The notes beneath the pieces are model-generated. The model was not told where the DNA came from, made no database searches, and saw only the letters and a list, made by a program, of their open reading frames with translations. Shown one piece after another: positions 4,627 through 24,149 of a stretch of DNA of 64,000 nucleotides. The DNA is from Desulfosudis oleivorans. Its GTDB lineage: Bacteria; Desulfobacterota; Desulfobacteria; Desulfobacterales; SURF-7. The stretch covers positions 1 to 64,000 of the forward strand of contig DYJD01000012.1 of the NCBI GenBank assembly GCA_020723325.1. The letters run 5' to 3'. Position 1 is the stretch's first letter. Each line of letters begins with the position of its first letter. The position numbers and the translations under genes were made by a program.

Positions 4627-4732
4627 AAAGATTATCCTCTTGCCGGGGATAGGTTTCGCGAACCGAAAACCGGGTTTCCCTGCCCGGCTTCTCCGGCATT
4701 TCTCCACAGGGGTGATGAAGGGAGATCGCAGA

Positions 4733-14243: not shown

Positions 14244-14606
14244 ATGAAAATACAAACACGCATAAAAACAAGAGATGAAGTTCTAAAAGAGTTTGCCGAA
14301 GCCTATGATGCCCGGTTTTTTAAAACACTGGCTGAACCGGTCCGGATTCAGATTTTATCTTATCTGATGCTTAACGGACGTTCCGATATCGGCTCCATTA
14401 CGGAAAACATGCCTCAGGACCGGTCCGTTGTTTCAAGGCATCTGAATCAAATGCATGCGGTCGGCATGTTGTGTTGTGAAAAAAAAACCCGGCACGTGTA
14501 TTACGCCATTAATGCCCAGTCCTTTGTTGATAAGCTGGAACGGTTTTTGACGTTAATCAAGGAAAGTATTTCAGTATGTTGTCCGCCTGATTGCTGTTCA
14601 AAATAA
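14244..14606 (+). CDS. arsR: ArsR-family metalloid-responsive repressor
   Basis: A 120-residue winged-helix protein. LAEPVRIQILSYLM starts the fold and the recognition helix lies near DRSVVSRHLNQMHAVGM. It has vicinal cysteines after the HTH (GMLCCEKK) and at the C-terminus (SVCCPPDCCSK), plausible As(III)/Sb(III) or other soft-metal ligands. ArsR proteins release DNA on metalloid binding. No ribosome site is seen and the promoter implies a leaderless transcript. It precedes an MddA-like gene and arsM. Operator-like sites also occur before 14676 and before the glycyl radical enzyme at 18676. Confidence 0.85.
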   Translation: MKIQTRIKTRDEVLKEFAEAYDARFFKTLAEPVRIQILSYLMLNGRSDIGSITENMPQDRSVVSRHLNQMHAVGMLCCEKKTRHVYYAINAQSFVDKLERFLTLIKESISVCCPPDCCSK

Positions 14607-14628
14607 GGTGGAAATTTTTTTTGATCAT

Positions 14629-14652
14629 AATATATGCATAGATGTGCATTAT
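14629..14652 (+). promoter_or_regulatory. second ArsR-like operator
   Basis: TATATGCATAGATGTGCATT lies about 25 bases before the ribosome site of the 14676 gene and has imperfect dyad symmetry. Its reverse complement shares TCTATGCA plus flanking bases with the site at 18625. It implies that the methyltransferase operon has its own regulated promoter. Confidence 0.5.
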
Positions 14653-14675
14653 TACATTAAACAAAGGAATGAGAA

Positions 14676-15458
14676 ATGAAAATCAAAAACCAAATTTCAG
14701 AAAATACTTCATATCAGCCAAAAGACCGTATCCAATCGTATGTGGCGATTGCGCTTTCCATTTTACTGGGAGGCTTTTCCATGATTCTTTTCGTTGCTTT
14801 CCTTTATACCGGATTGCCCAGTCAGATCGATCTGGGACTTGATGAACAGGCGAATCTTTATGTCAACACAATGCTTTGCCTTCTTTTTTTCTTTCAACAC
14901 AGCCTCATGGTTCGCAAGAGTTTCCGCAAATGGTTGTCGGGTTTTATTCCCGAGGATTACCTCAGCGCATTCTTTTCGATTTTTTCCGGATTGTTTTTAT
15001 TGATACTCATGCTTTTCTGGCAAAAATCAACCTCCTTCCAGGTTGAGCTGGATGGAGCGGCTTTTTGGTTCATGCGCGTCCTGTTCTTTCTTTCCATTAT
15101 CGGCTTCTATATATCCTCCCGTTTTTTGAGGCCTTTTGACCCCTTTGGCATCCGGGAAATTTCGACTCATTTAAAAGGCAAAACCGCAAAGGAACCTATC
15201 TTTACAGTACGCGGGACTTACCAGTGGGTCCGGCATCCGTTATATTTCTTCTGTCTTCTAATGATATGGGCACAGGTTTCCGTGACCACGGACCGGTTGG
15301 TTTTCAACGGTCTGTGGACCTTATGGATAATCATCGGCACTTTCCTGGAGGAAAGAGACCTGATCGCTTCTTTTGGCGATGCATATCAAAACTACCGGCG
15401 CAGTGTTCCGATGCTGATTCCATACAAGTGGCGACCCTGGAATCATGATAACAATTAA
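14676..15458 (+). CDS. MddA-like membrane methyltransferase (ICMT/NnrU superfamily)
   Basis: A 260-residue integral membrane protein with about five or six hydrophobic segments. The C-terminal catalytic signature of isoprenylcysteine methyltransferase-like enzymes is clear: RGTYQWVRHPLYF and FLEERDLIASFGDAYQNYR followed by PMLIPY. The last block resembles methanethiol S-methyltransferase MddA, which makes dimethyl sulfide from methanethiol; that is the favoured reading, with generic thiol or metalloid methylation as alternatives. AAAGGAATGAG gives the ribosome site. It lies 25 bases before arsM and behind an ArsR-like operator, so thiol and arsenic methylation may be co-regulated. Confidence 0.65.
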   Translation: MKIKNQISENTSYQPKDRIQSYVAIALSILLGGFSMILFVAFLYTGLPSQIDLGLDEQANLYVNTMLCLLFFFQHSLMVRKSFRKWLSGFIPEDYLSAFFSIFSGLFLLILMLFWQKSTSFQVELDGAAFWFMRVLFFLSIIGFYISSRFLRPFDPFGIREISTHLKGKTAKEPIFTVRGTYQWVRHPLYFFCLLMIWAQVSVTTDRLVFNGLWTLWIIIGTFLEERDLIASFGDAYQNYRRSVPMLIPYKWRPWNHDNN

Positions 15459-15483
15459 CCCAAGATTTTTAAGGAGAATGGCA

Positions 15484-16347
15484 ATGAATCAAAATGAAAA
15501 AATTAGAGAGATGGTTTCAACCGCTTATGGGAAAGCAATTGGCTTGGTCTCTGAAGGATGCGGTTGCGGATGCAAACCTTTGAATGAAAAAGATTCCATC
15601 GCAAGCATGGCAGGTTATGAAAAGACGGATATCAGTTCGCTGAATTCCGATGCTGCCGCCAGTTCTTTTGGTTGCGGCAATCCCCTGGCGTTCAGCGGTG
15701 TCAAAGAAGGAGATACAGTATTGGATCTTGGAAGCGGCGCAGGTTTTGACCTGATTCTGGCTGCCAAAAAAGTCGGGCCAGGCGGTCGTGTGATCGGCGT
15801 GGATATGACCGAAGCCATGATCCAGAAAGCAAGGGAAAATATCCGGAAAGAGGGATTGACCAACGTGGAAGTCCGGCAAGGACTGATTGAGAATCTGCCG
15901 GTTGAATCCGCGTCCGTGGACTGGCTGATTTCCAATTGTGTGATCAATCTTTCTCCGGAAAAAGCACGTGTTTTTTCGGAGATCCAGCGGGTACTCAAGC
16001 CCGGCGGGCAAATGCTGGTGTCGGATATCGTGGTGAAAAATCTGCCGGACTGGTTGCGTCAGAACAACCAGGTCTACGCCACATGTGTGGGTGGCGCCAT
16101 CAGCGAAGAAGAATATCTGGCCGGGCTTCGCAAGGCAGGCTTGATGAATGTGGCGGTTCGAAACCGGTTTGTCTATGAAGCATCACAGATTAAGGCGTTT
16201 TTTGAAACAGGGGAAGTACCTGGCCTGAAAGAAGTGATCCATGACATTTCCACACAAAACCGCGAAAATCTGATCCATCAGATGACTAAGAAAGCAGTCG
16301 GGAATGTCTGGAGCGCCGAGTTCTATGCCCAAAAAAAAGGAGAATAA
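15484..16347 (+). CDS. arsM: arsenite S-adenosylmethionine methyltransferase ArsM
   Basis: A 287-residue class I methyltransferase that methylates As(III) stepwise. The SAM loop is LDLGSGAGFDL (about 79) followed by GVDMTEAMI. ArsM hallmarks are the N-terminal cysteine cluster GCGCGC, FGCGNPLAF, and SNCVINLSPEKARVF (about 149). The later ATCVGGAISEEEYLAGLRKAG block is also typical. The three cysteine regions are the expected As(III) ligands. The ATG at 15484 is spaced correctly from AAGGAG; one at 15478 is too close. It is followed after one base by the C-GCAxxG-C-C gene. Confidence 0.85.
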   Translation: MNQNEKIREMVSTAYGKAIGLVSEGCGCGCKPLNEKDSIASMAGYEKTDISSLNSDAAASSFGCGNPLAFSGVKEGDTVLDLGSGAGFDLILAAKKVGPGGRVIGVDMTEAMIQKARENIRKEGLTNVEVRQGLIENLPVESASVDWLISNCVINLSPEKARVFSEIQRVLKPGGQMLVSDIVVKNLPDWLRQNNQVYATCVGGAISEEEYLAGLRKAGLMNVAVRNRFVYEASQIKAFFETGEVPGLKEVIHDISTQNRENLIHQMTKKAVGNVWSAEFYAQKKGE

Positions 16348-16348
16348 A

Positions 16349-16819
16349 ATGAAGAGATCAAGTGACGAAATCATAAACCGAATGATCCAATTGGCAGGAA
16401 ACAAATATAATTGCAGCCAAATTATGATGCACCTCGCTCTGGAACAGGAAAAATATGAAAATCCAGGTCTGGTACGCGCGATGTCCGGCCTGGGCGACGG
16501 CTGTGGTTTTTTTAATGAAACATGCGGGGTTATGACAAGTGCAGCCAGCGTGCTTGCCTGGTATGGGGGCAAAGGGTCCGACAGCGAAGCAGAATCTGAA
16601 AAATTACTTCCGATGCTTCAGGATTTGGGAGAATGGTTTCGGCAAAAAACCGCCTTAAAATTCAAAGGCACAAGCTGCAGGGAAATTGTAGGAGATCAGG
16701 TGGGAACTACCGCAGGCAAACAGATTTGCGGTAAACTGATCTTCGATACATACAATAAAGTGAATGAAATTCTGACAAATTATGGGTTTTTAAACCTTCA
16801 GACCAGGGCTGAGCCCTGA
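16349..16819 (+). CDS. C-GCAxxG-C-C family protein
   Basis: A 156-residue protein of the C-GCAxxG-C-C redox family (TIGR01909-like). YNCSQ near the N-terminus, GDGCGFFNETCGVMTSAASV in the middle, and Cys in SCREIVG and ICGKL give the conserved cysteine set. The family is small, cytoplasmic and uncharacterised, often next to methyltransferases in anaerobes; a thiol, metal or metalloid transfer role has been suspected but not shown. The start follows AAAAGGAGAATAAA, one base after arsM, so it is co-transcribed. A second family member, a selenoprotein, lies at 23706. Confidence 0.8.
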   Translation: MKRSSDEIINRMIQLAGNKYNCSQIMMHLALEQEKYENPGLVRAMSGLGDGCGFFNETCGVMTSAASVLAWYGGKGSDSEAESEKLLPMLQDLGEWFRQKTALKFKGTSCREIVGDQVGTTAGKQICGKLIFDTYNKVNEILTNYGFLNLQTRAEP

Positions 16820-18644: not shown

Positions 18645-18675
18645 AGAGCATTTAATGTGTATTGAGAGGTCAAAG

Positions 18676-21138
18676 ATGAATAAGAAAAGAAGCATGTCGA
18701 CTGAACGGACAGAAGCACTAAAGAGAGCATCATTAAAAGAGCCCAGAACAATATCAATACTGAGGGCAAGAGCGTTTACTGAAATCTATCAAAATTTTCC
18801 AGATAAACCCCTAACAATGAAAAGAGCCCTTGCCTTTAAAAAATATTTTGAGACAGTGCCCATTCGTATTTATGAAAATGAGTTGATTGTGGGCGCTATT
18901 ACTGAAAAAAGACGCGGGGCCTTTCTGATTCCGGAGACAAATATCGATGGAATGGCCACCGGAGGACAATTCAACCAAGTCCAAAAGAAAAGTATAGGAA
19001 AAATCATTGATTCGGCATCCAGTGTAATTTCCCCGATAAATCCATCTATCTCAGGTAAGCTGGCACTTGCCAATTTACTTTTGGAAGCGAAACTGGATAA
19101 TTTTGAAAACCGATCTACTTTAAATTTCTCGATCACACCGGAAGAAAAGAACGAGTTAAACAGTGTAATACTTCCCTATTGGAAAGAAAAAAATGCTTAT
19201 AATAAATATCGCAAATATATATCTTTCAAGGAAAAATCTTTGATGGAGCATGCCATTGCTTATGCAGCTGAACATCAGCTTGTCGGTGGCGTTTTTCTTT
19301 TTCATCCGAATTTGGAAAGAGTCGCACAAACAGGATTGGGAGATATAATCCAAAGCGCCCAAAACCGGCTTGATTCGATAAAGGGCAAATCCAAAAATGA
19401 AGCCGATCAAAGAGATTTTTACGAGGCAGTCATTATCACATGCAAAGCCGTGATAACGTTTGCGCACAGATATGCTGACCTGGCTGAATCCATGGCATCA
19501 ATTGAAATCTCAATGGATAGAAAAAAGGAATTGTTGGAGATTTCGAAAGTTTGCAGAACTGTTCCTGAAAAAAAAGCAAGCAATTTCAGAGAAGGTTTAC
19601 AAGCGCTCTGGTTTGCATTTATTGCAGTAGCAAATGATGACGGCGGTCATGAGATTCCTTTTGGGCGTTGGGACCAAGTATTGTATCCCTTGTATAAAGC
19701 CGACCTTGACACGGGAAAGGTGACAAAAGCAGAAGCGTTAGAACTGCTTGAAGCCTATTTGATTAAAGCGGACGAAGTCGAATTTTTGCTTATGAATAAA
19801 GCCCAGTATTTCGAGGATGGTAACAGTGCCAGAATAACCCTGACAATTGGCGGTGTAGACATATCCGGAAACGATGCGACCAATGAAATTTCTTATCTAT
19901 TTTTAGAAGCCCTCTCCAATACTAGGCTTCCCAAGCCAAATCCGGCTGTTCGGCTGCACTCCAAAACCCCTGAAACGTTTCTAAGCCGGGTTGTCGAGAT
20001 TATGGCGGATGGTGCCAATACGATCCAGGTGTTTAACGATGAAAGTATCATAAAAGGGTTTGAAGAAAAAGGGTTCTCTCCGCATGACGCAAGGGATTAC
20101 ATTATTACCGGATGCGTTCAACCGATTCCCAAATCTACCTATGGGTCTGTTTGCGCAGGCCATTTGAGCCTTCCGAAAATATTGGAAATGTTTTTGAAAA
20201 AAAACAAAGAAGAAGCTTCTTTTCAAAGGTTTTTAAAGCAATATCTGGCTTTTCATTCCGATATAATAAAAAATATCACAAAAACCTTGGAATCTGTGGA
20301 TCGTATCCACGATGAGTTGATCCCGAACATTTTTATCTCAGCTATTGGGGATGGCCCCATGGATCAGGGGAAAGATATTAAAAAAGGTAGTTCTAAAAAT
20401 AACATGACGGGTATAGGCCTCCAGGGATTTGGAACAACAGTCGATTCCCTGATGGCGATAAAAGCGGCTGTTTTTGAAGACAAACGATATAGCTTTAAGG
20501 AATTGAACCGGATGCTTAGAAATAATTTTAAGGGGTTTGAGGCCCAAAGACTTTATTTGTTAAATAAAATCGATAAATTTGGAAATGATGTGGATAAGGT
20601 TGATTCACTTGGCAAAATTTTGATCGATGCTTTAAATGATGAATTTGAAAAATATACAACCTATCGCGGCGGTAAATATGCAGTAGGCGTCCATTCTGAA
20701 AATGGTGCGGTTGTTTTTGGTCTTACGGTGGGAGCCACACCTGACGGGAGGAGAATGACAGAACCACTTTCCCTTGGCGGGGGTAATGGTCGGGGACGCG
20801 AAAAAAATGGTCTTACCGCGGCATTAAAATCTTTTGCTAAATATGACCCGAAAAAAGTCATCGGCGGCGTATCCATAAGTATTAATCTCCTTCCCTCAAT
20901 GTTTGAGAGTAAAGAAAAAATTTATCGTTTTCGAGATATGCTTTCAACGTATTTTTTTGAATTTGGCGGTATGCATTTAATGACAACGGTTGTGGATGTT
21001 GAAACATTAAAAAAAGCAAAAGTCGTTCCTGATGACTATAAAGATTTACTGGTCAGAGTCTCCGGGTATAGTGCAAGGTTTATTGAATTAACGGAGCGAA
21101 CTCAGGATGAGATCATCTCCAGAACAGCAATGGCTTAA
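18676..21138 (+). CDS. glycyl radical enzyme of the PFL family, substrate unknown
   Basis: An 820-residue glycyl radical enzyme. The active-site cysteine is in DYIITGCVQPIPKS (about 478), and the radical glycine is in LVRVSGYSARFIEL (about 796), followed by TQDEIISRTAMA. Dehydratase and lyase members (glycerol dehydratase, choline lyase) usually read GCVEP, where Glu is the general base; here it is Gln, so the chemistry is hard to predict. GAGAGG precedes the ATG. The activase follows 21 bases later. An ArsR-like operator at 18625 suggests control by the arsR product, which is unusual for this family. Confidence 0.85.
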   Translation: MNKKRSMSTERTEALKRASLKEPRTISILRARAFTEIYQNFPDKPLTMKRALAFKKYFETVPIRIYENELIVGAITEKRRGAFLIPETNIDGMATGGQFNQVQKKSIGKIIDSASSVISPINPSISGKLALANLLLEAKLDNFENRSTLNFSITPEEKNELNSVILPYWKEKNAYNKYRKYISFKEKSLMEHAIAYAAEHQLVGGVFLFHPNLERVAQTGLGDIIQSAQNRLDSIKGKSKNEADQRDFYEAVIITCKAVITFAHRYADLAESMASIEISMDRKKELLEISKVCRTVPEKKASNFREGLQALWFAFIAVANDDGGHEIPFGRWDQVLYPLYKADLDTGKVTKAEALELLEAYLIKADEVEFLLMNKAQYFEDGNSARITLTIGGVDISGNDATNEISYLFLEALSNTRLPKPNPAVRLHSKTPETFLSRVVEIMADGANTIQVFNDESIIKGFEEKGFSPHDARDYIITGCVQPIPKSTYGSVCAGHLSLPKILEMFLKKNKEEASFQRFLKQYLAFHSDIIKNITKTLESVDRIHDELIPNIFISAIGDGPMDQGKDIKKGSSKNNMTGIGLQGFGTTVDSLMAIKAAVFEDKRYSFKELNRMLRNNFKGFEAQRLYLLNKIDKFGNDVDKVDSLGKILIDALNDEFEKYTTYRGGKYAVGVHSENGAVVFGLTVGATPDGRRMTEPLSLGGGNGRGREKNGLTAALKSFAKYDPKKVIGGVSISINLLPSMFESKEKIYRFRDMLSTYFFEFGGMHLMTTVVDVETLKKAKVVPDDYKDLLVRVSGYSARFIELTERTQDEIISRTAMA

Positions 21139-21159
21139 AAATTTTGGAGGTACAAAGTA

Positions 21160-22062
21160 ATGGAAACAGGTGTTATCTTCAATATTCAGAGATATAGTGT
21201 CAATGACGGCCCCGGCATTAGGACAATCGTTTTCTTCAAGGGTTGTCCTATGCGGTGTGCATGGTGTGAAAATCCCGAATCAATAACGTTTAAGCCGCAA
21301 ATTTCCTTCCACCAAAAAAAATGCATTTATTGCGGTATATGTCAGAAACGCTGTACCAAAAGCGTTATTAACATCGACCAGCCGTACCGTTTTGATTGGA
21401 ATAAGTGTGATAGCTGTGGAGACTGTACTGTCGAATGTCCTGCGGAAGCCATTGAACTGATCGGCCGCTATATGACGGTTGATGATATCATGAAAGAGAT
21501 TCGAAAAGATGACGCCTTCTATAAAAAATCCAGGGGTGGCGTTACCATTTCTGGGGGTGAAGCCACATCACAGTTTGCTTTTCTGAATAAACTGTTAAAA
21601 GCATTAAAAGCGAACAGATACCATATTGTCCTTGAAACAAATGGATTGTTGGAATGGGAAAAAATGGAAAAAATTTTACCTGAAATCGATATTGTTTATC
21701 TGGATATTAAAGGAGTTGATCCAGAGCGGCACAGACAAAATACGGCTGTTGGAAATTCTTTGATTCTACAAAACGCAAAAAATCTATCGTATACCCATCA
21801 CAAGGTAATTTTCAGGATACCGATTATTCCGGGGCTTAACGATTCACTAGAGGATATCCGGCAATTGGACAATATTCTAAGTTCCGTCCATGCTAAGGAG
21901 GTTCATCTACTCCCCTATCATAATTTGGGTGAAGATAAAATCCAAACCCTTCAAACCGCACAAGCACGCCTTGGAATAGCATCAATGAAGCCTTCAGAGC
22001 TATATGACATTGTAAAAATACTCCAACATTCTGGCAGAAATATTATTGTAGGAGGTGAATAG
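21160..22062 (+). CDS. glycyl radical enzyme activase (radical SAM)
   Basis: A 300-residue activating enzyme. The radical SAM motif is CPMRCAWC (about 29-36) after SVNDGPGIRTIVF. A ferredoxin insert with two 4Fe-4S sites follows (CIYCGICQKRC and CDSCGDCTVEC), as in activases of glycerol dehydratase and choline lyase. GGVTISGGEA binds SAM. It would abstract hydrogen from the glycine of the 18676 product. The start has TTGGAGG upstream. A hairpin at 22100-22128 probably ends this two-gene operon. Confidence 0.92.
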   Translation: METGVIFNIQRYSVNDGPGIRTIVFFKGCPMRCAWCENPESITFKPQISFHQKKCIYCGICQKRCTKSVINIDQPYRFDWNKCDSCGDCTVECPAEAIELIGRYMTVDDIMKEIRKDDAFYKKSRGGVTISGGEATSQFAFLNKLLKALKANRYHIVLETNGLLEWEKMEKILPEIDIVYLDIKGVDPERHRQNTAVGNSLILQNAKNLSYTHHKVIFRIPIIPGLNDSLEDIRQLDNILSSVHAKEVHLLPYHNLGEDKIQTLQTAQARLGIASMKPSELYDIVKILQHSGRNIIVGGE

Positions 22063-23282: not shown

Positions 23283-23705
23283 CTAATCGTTTGAACACTA
23301 ACGTGACGTCTGGTTTCTTCCATCCGAGCGAATTGTAGAATTGGCCAGGTCAAAATCCCCAAGCAACAAGATGGAAAATATAATCTAATCTCTTAAAATC
23401 GTCAATCTTTTTCATCCTGCGTTCCTCGTTTTATCTTTGCTTTGCATGCGCCTTTTGGCGCCCTCCTTCTACCGATAACTTTTTCGCTCGAACTTCAGCA
23501 GATGGTCATGGACTCATGTGGTTCCGCCATTGTCTTCGGCTAATAGTTATGATAATAGAGCAATAAATTTATTATCTCTATCAGGATTCACGTACGAGGG
23601 ACTTTCACCCTATAAGATCACGCCCATGTCGGGCCTACACAAATAGGGCCTATCGAGCTTGGGGTCTGCCGGGTATGCCATGTTGGGCTAATAGAAAGAG
23701 GGAAA
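23283..23705. other. 420-bp gap with small hairpins, possible degraded element
   Basis: No gene is evident. Short self-complementary segments occur near 23613-23660 (GGGACTTTCACCC, CGCCCATGTCGGGC and GGCCTACACAAATAGGGCC). The region resembles the structured 3' ends of mobile elements in general, but I cannot name one. It includes the promoter region of the selenoprotein gene at 23706. Confidence 0.3.
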
Positions 23706-24149
23706 ATGATATCGAGTAAAATTAATACCGCAACTGAAAAATTTTTAAACGGATATAATTGAGCACAATCAGCACTTTACGCTTTCCGGGAAGAAGGCGA
23801 CTTGTCAGAGGAAATGGCCTTAAAGATTGCATGTGGTTTGGGAGCAGGCATGGCACGAAAAGAAGAAGTCTGCGGAGCAGTGACAGGCGGTATTCTCGTC
23901 TTGGGAATGCGGTATGGAAGGGGCTCCAAAGACGACCGATCTGCCCAGGAGCTGACATATATAAAAACACGAAAACTGATGGACGAATTTTCGGAAAAGC
24001 ATGGAACGGTTATCTGTCGTAAGTTGTTAAACGATTGTGATTTGATGACAGAAGAAGGTCAAAAATACTTCAAAGAGAATGATTTGCTTAATAAATTGTG
24101 TGTACCGTGTGTTCAAAGCATAGTGATGATTCTCGAAGAAAAACATTAG
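23706..24149 (+). CDS. C-GCAxxG-C-C family selenoprotein
   Basis: A 147-residue protein with an in-frame TGA at codon 19 (23760-23762), read here as selenocysteine. Upstream codons give KFLNGYN and downstream codons give AQSALYAF, so the site is NGYN-U-AQS where relatives have NGYN-C-AQS. The frame then continues through KIACGLGAGMARKEEVCGAVTGG to the family's later cysteines. A hairpin with a CCGG loop 20-31 bases after the TGA is a candidate SECIS. Standard ORF calling starts it wrongly at 23802. Redox or metalloid chemistry is likely from the family; the function is unproven. Confidence 0.8.

Follow-up and report, generated by a model that had tools for sequence, protein, structure and literature searches.

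A C-GCAxxG-C-C family gene with UGA at the first invariant cysteine: a very probable selenoprotein with a possible link to split-Soret cytochrome c

Introduction

That the C-GCAxxG-C-C family contains selenoproteins is already known from its NCBI family name and from two reviews. The model TIGR01909 carries the title 'C-GCAxxG-C-C family (seleno)protein' in NCBIfam, C-GCAxxG-C-C selenoproteins are listed as one entry in PMC9312934, and PMC13188914 lists them as 'form 1' and 'form 2' (PF09719), with one Sec; the tables of these two reviews give no Sec motif for the C-GCAxxG-C-C forms. For the insertion signal, a bacterial SECIS model sets a stem of 4-16 bp, a loop of 3-9 nt with a G in its first two positions, a distance of 16-37 nt from the UGA and a free energy of at most -7.5 kcal/mol (PMC13188914).

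A further described system becomes relevant through protein structure. The solved structure 1h21, a split-Soret cytochrome c, contains a 'novel iron centre', which is reportedly a [2Fe-2S]-type cluster. Here we analyse a C-GCAxxG-C-C family gene of Desulfosudis oleivorans that lies in a stretch of 64,000 nucleotides, referred to below as the window, and we compare it with these systems.

Results

Reading frame and start codon

The first-pass annotation of the window had proposed that an ATG at 23706 opens a frame running into a TGA at codon 19, within NGYN-U-AQS, and that standard ORF calling would overlook this start. Both points are borne out by the sequence, in which the following features were located:

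23706..24149, forward strand: C-GCAxxG-C-C family gene for a predicted selenoprotein of 147 residues with Sec at position 19 (from frame, profiles and orthologue constraint)
23697..23702, forward strand: AGAGGG, a weak Shine-Dalgarno-like stretch 3 nt 5' of the ATG at 23706 (read from the sequence)
23760..23762, forward strand: UGA codon 19, predicted Sec, at the first invariant Cys of the family (from the homologue alignment)
23802..24149, forward strand: shortened ORF of 115 aa with a TTG start (from the mechanical ORF list)

The frame ends at a TAG (24147-24149), and the TGA at 23760-23762 is the only internal one. Because the mechanical ORF list begins at TTG 23802, residue 19 is lost from the listed product. 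The full frame scores higher than the short one against TIGR01909 (87.1 vs 68.4 bits, cut-off 47.4) and matches PF09719 with 104.6 bits (cut-off 27). Four conserved positions can be recognised in the protein, namely the predicted Sec19, C56 within CGAVTG (its version of the family's CGAxxG motif), C104 and C132.

To judge the start we used ten orthologous sequences: the window gene, its paralogue and eight further sequences. Purifying selection acts on codons 2-18 (pN/pS 0.34) and, more tightly, on codons 20-144 (pN/pS 0.18). Since the stretch 5' of 23802 is thus coding, a real start at 23802, the finding that the first-pass annotation had named as fatal to its own proposal, is unlikely. Met occupies codon 1 in 8 of the ten sequences; in L018 and L021 codon 1 is Ile or Val, and Met follows at codon 2. 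Since codon 2 of the window gene is Ile, the ATG at 23706 is its natural start.

UGA and Cys at codon 19 among homologues

TGA at codon 19 is common to all ten orthologous sequences, and the genome from which the window comes holds a second, intact TGA copy (L029). Among 14 loci taken from species genomes, TGA occupies codon 19 in L015-L021 and Cys does so in L022-L026 and L028, with L027 starting 3' of the site. Across 389 genomes of the class, 23 family matches had an in-frame TGA, which was counted only within the matched stretch, so that TGA forms are undercounted; the TGA falls exactly at the first Cys in 21 of these 23. The remaining two keep Cys at the first site and have their TGA inside the CGA motif (L091) or further downstream (L097). 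Outside the 23, two matches (G095 and G233) have TAG instead of TGA. Four sequences scored as 'none' at first, the tandem L049, L051 and L052 together with L055, nevertheless have TGA at the first Cys. In five tandem two-domain proteins (L049, L051, L052, L103 and L104) TGA stands at the first Cys position of domain 1, with Cys at the corresponding position of domain 2; a sixth, L050, has Cys at the first site of both domains.

We then examined an alignment of 47 homologues, obtained from 51 candidates by removing L030 (identical to the 23706 protein), L047, L103, L058 and L056 and adding the 23706 protein itself; L091, L097 and L104 had been dropped by name, short spans, duplicates and sequences with stops were also left out, and L100 and L105 are absent. 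With TGA taken as Cys, columns 19, 56 and 104 are invariant and column 132 is conserved in at least 90% of sequences. Column 19 holds Cys in 27 sequences and TGA in 20, which agrees with the claim that the family has Cys where this gene has UGA; homologues lacking a conserved Cys there, the other observation by which that proposal could have fallen, are absent from the alignment. The tree of the 47 proteins needs four Sec/Cys exchanges, at least three of them forced by well-supported branches, and places the ten close Sec orthologues in one clade (support 100/99).

These data also bear on the possibility that the TGA is a true stop or a nonsense mutation, the locus being either a pseudogene or a gene that starts at TTG 23802. 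The mechanical ORF list gives exactly that start, and the displaced TGAs of L091 and L097 (2 of 23), with Cys kept, resemble ordinary damage. However, damage or genuine termination fits poorly with a TGA at one and the same site in ten orthologous sequences, with an N-terminus under purifying selection, with constrained codons in the hairpin described below and with the intact second TGA copy L029 in the same genome, and we regard it as extremely improbable.

A predicted hairpin at SECIS distance

The following feature was predicted downstream of the UGA:

23780..23799, forward strand: predicted SECIS hairpin with a 7-bp stem and the loop CGGGAA at 23787-23792 (from folding and conservation)

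In this hairpin (CGCUUUC-CGGGAA-GAAGGCG) the loop lies 24 nt 3' of the UGA, inside the 16-37 nt limit, and the earlier statement that a hairpin sits at SECIS distance is therefore correct. The stem of 7 bp, the loop of 6 nt, the CG at the loop start and the spacing all lie within the limits of the bacterial model, whereas the energy of the hairpin alone (-7.4 kcal/mol) falls just short of the limit of -7.5 and reaches -9.5 kcal/mol in a 46-nt fold. The fold is no better than chance (z -1.16, with 29 of 200 shuffles folding as well) and is ordinary against synonymous shuffles (z +0.42). It is conservation that supports the putative hairpin: in the ten orthologous sequences codons 25-32 have a pS of 0.15, compared with 0.66 for codons 33-144, and among 118 eight-codon windows the lowest five pS values are those of windows starting at codons 24-28. 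All ten retain the hairpin 24 nt 3' of their TGA. In the nine distinct sequences each of the 63 pair cells holds a standard pair, a level of pairing matched by shuffles in 396 of 500 cases. Covariation was not seen: in the ten sequences, of which nine are distinct, every change affects one side of a pair only.

A simple SECIS scanner was run at six energy limits on Cys forms, on the TGAs of the window and on 24 TGA forms (the 21 matches from 389 genomes plus L017, L020 and L021). At -5 kcal/mol, one of the six limits, a hairpin was accepted in 21 of 24 TGA forms, in none of 31 Cys forms and for 221 of 2428 window TGAs; at -7.5 the corresponding counts were 9 of 24, 0 of 31 and 83 of 2428, and the hairpin of the window gene failed by 0.1. 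In three of the 24 TGA forms (L093, L094 and L098) the scanner found no hairpin, even with the limit relaxed to -3. Synonymous shuffles passed at -7.5 with a mean of 0.074 for TGA forms vs 0.013 for Cys forms; the difference in hairpins between the two is therefore due in part to amino-acid composition. The downstream MFE also differs between the two, with p 0.001 for 24 TGA vs 31 Cys forms and p 0.04 for 12 chosen TGA forms vs the same 31, related sequences not being independent in either comparison.

Selenocysteine machinery

The genome of the window contains tRNA-Sec, SelA, SelB and SelD, with two SelB genes above cut-off. These are located at L109:2351-4288 and C92:43990-45882, one of them adjoining tRNA-Sec, and two SelB genes are also found in several relatives. 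SelD itself is often a selenoprotein, and the SelD of this genome (L110) has its own in-frame TGA, in GAG-U-ASKL, which makes it likely to be a further selenoprotein. We surveyed SelB in 80 of the 93 genomes with family matches, the other 13 having only TGA-less matches with E values from 6e-10 to 1e-8. SelB was found in 19 of the 20 genomes with a TGA form and in 72 of 80 overall; being near-universal, its presence discriminates little. One genome with a TGA form, G387, gave no SelB at E <= 1e-62.

The machinery and the alignment together weigh against a reading in which a standard amino acid is inserted at UGA19, or in which this codon acts mainly as a regulatory stop. Readthrough of this kind would leave unexplained why all 27 TGA-less rows of the 47 have Cys at column 19, and the genome possesses machinery specific for Sec; we consider it very unlikely. 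From the open frame, the exchange of Cys and UGA at an invariant site, the constraint on both the hairpin and the N-terminus and the machinery, all of them computational observations, we infer that Sec is actually inserted at codon 19. We are thus highly confident, on sequence grounds, that 23706-24149 encodes a C-GCAxxG-C-C selenoprotein in which UGA19 would be read as Sec.

Genomic surroundings and distribution

No conserved gene neighbourhood was found in a comparison of 13 loci (the 14 above without L025), the window with 8 kb either side of the gene, and L029; neighbourhood clustering gave one ORF cluster besides the gene itself that is common to two loci, L023 and L027. Viral copies did not turn up, either in a pattern scan of viral contigs or as viral fold matches at E <= 0.001. 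Plasmid matches came from nine records, all below 60% identity.

The window contains another family member, for which the first-pass annotation had given Cys at the equivalent site. This is accurate, the site reading KYNCSQ:

16349..16819, forward strand: second family member, Cys form, of the DVU_1555 subfamily (NF045669, 156.1 bits, cut-off 103)

Its ORF runs from 16304, with an in-frame ATG at 16349. Positions 14244-16819 hold in a row a regulator, an NnrU-like membrane protein, a methyltransferase and this DVU_1555 family protein; we take the regulator to be ArsR-like and the methyltransferase to resemble ArsM. Elsewhere in the window, positions 18655-22062 encode a pyruvate-formate-lyase-like glycyl radical enzyme with an adjoining radical SAM protein, and an int-alpA RNA match at 4642-4711 (55 bits, gathering threshold 35.8) possibly marks an integrated element.

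Predicted fold and relation to split-Soret cytochrome c

The AF2 model of the 23706 protein has a mean pLDDT of 95.8 and nine helices, with no strand of at least 3 residues. Its best match among solved structures is 1h21_A, with Z 13.3 over 133 residues at 3.6 A, a value to be read against the fact that helical proteins commonly reach Z of up to about 13, and with the next row at Z 4.6. Foldseek gave E 0.07, a probability of 1.00 and a TM of 0.64 for the comparison of the model with 1h21. Direct sequence searches of solved structures with the 23706 protein, two family alignments and the 16349 protein returned nothing convincing, and the route to 1h21 by sequence went via NF047622, the split-Soret cytochrome c profile, and a fetched cytochrome. 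NF047622 reaches E <= 1 with 14 of the 47 family members (best 6.6e-5), the 23706 protein itself not being among them. With hhalign, the family and split-Soret profiles align with E 4.4e-6 over 65 columns, and Cys 19 and Cys 56 fall on the first and second of the conserved cytochrome Cys. C104 and C132 were paired with the third and fourth cytochrome Cys (in LCH and ERC) by order only. The conserved Cys of 1h21 are residues 44, 86, 147 and 171 of the chain sequence.

We next considered in-frame TGA codons in split-Soret homologues, using surveys of 192 and 395 genomes, some of them in both. Six homologues have one. In five of these (L119, L122, L123, L153 and L155, in five genomes) it lies at the first Cys, and in L154 it lies near the C-terminus with the first Cys kept; two rows of the 395-genome survey have TAA or TAG. 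SelB is present in all five genomes with TGA at the first Cys and in 52 of 56 tested overall. From their codons, the five form a possible group of candidate selenoproteins that would be undescribed: a full-text search of the open-access literature returned no paper on a selenocysteine split-Soret cytochrome, and the main text of PMC13188914 contains no word beginning with 'soret'. That the same site is exchanged in haem-free and haem-bearing branches points to a residue that is chemically active or metal-binding.

Discussion

The gene at 23706 is a clean case of a predicted selenoprotein shortened by ORF listing, with loss of both the N-terminus and the key residue. In the mechanism that we propose, SelB and tRNA-Sec would read UGA codon 19 as selenocysteine, with the hairpin at 23780-23799 directing the insertion. 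The product would be a haem-free electron-transfer protein in which Sec19 would act as a selenolate ligand of an iron(-sulfur) centre or as a nucleophile beside it. We hold tentatively, from the fold and the alignment, that the Cys/Sec residues 19, 56, 104 and 132 form a metal or redox site of the split-Soret N-terminal fold.

A selenoprotein without a metal has to be weighed here, with Sec19 as a catalytic selenol engaged in thiol/disulfide cycling with another Cys. The Pfam label of PF09719, 'putative redox-active protein', suits such a role, the usual place of Sec is the active site of a redox enzyme (PMC13188914, PMC9312934), and the lack of a conserved neighbour gene means that the context hints at no Fe-S partner. 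The helical fold, lacking strands of that minimum length, speaks against a selenol of this kind, as does the fact that the sole strong match of the fold is a domain of an iron-centre protein. We consider the catalytic selenol a real possibility that stops short of being probable.

Returning to the iron-centre reading, its broader form may be stated as follows, with a reservation of similar weight: C-GCAxxG-C-C proteins and split-Soret cytochromes would share a four-Cys domain, the site of the 'novel iron centre' in 1h21, and Sec and Cys would have been exchanged at its first Cys in several lineages, so that Sec could be a natural ligand of, or lie beside, an iron(-sulfur) cluster and Sec split-Soret cytochromes could constitute a selenoprotein family. 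A family of small redox proteins that still lack characterisation would in this way be tied to a solved iron-centre structure and gain a testable predicted function, a metal or redox site of four Cys/Sec. With the Sec/Cys exchange occurring in a haem protein family as well, a natural selenolate at an iron centre becomes directly testable.

Compared with the described systems, the 23706 protein belongs to the same Pfam family, PF09719, as the form 1 and form 2 selenoproteins of PMC13188914. It has a Pfam family in common with the DVU_1555 family (NF045669), but its score of 51.4 lies below the cut-off of 103 and it is not a DVU_1555 member. The N-terminal part of the HUGP/GUXX-star fusion selenoprotein (NF045501) matches it at 1.2e-12; the 23706 protein, however, covers only positions 12-151 of the 236 of that profile, and with a score of 47.8 vs a cut-off of 325 it is not a member. 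With split-Soret cytochrome c it has in common a predicted fold that matches along its entire length and four conserved Cys in the same order, but it is without the CXXCH haem motif and the haem-bearing C-terminal part of the cytochrome, in which all nine aligned split-Soret sequences have two CXXCH motifs.
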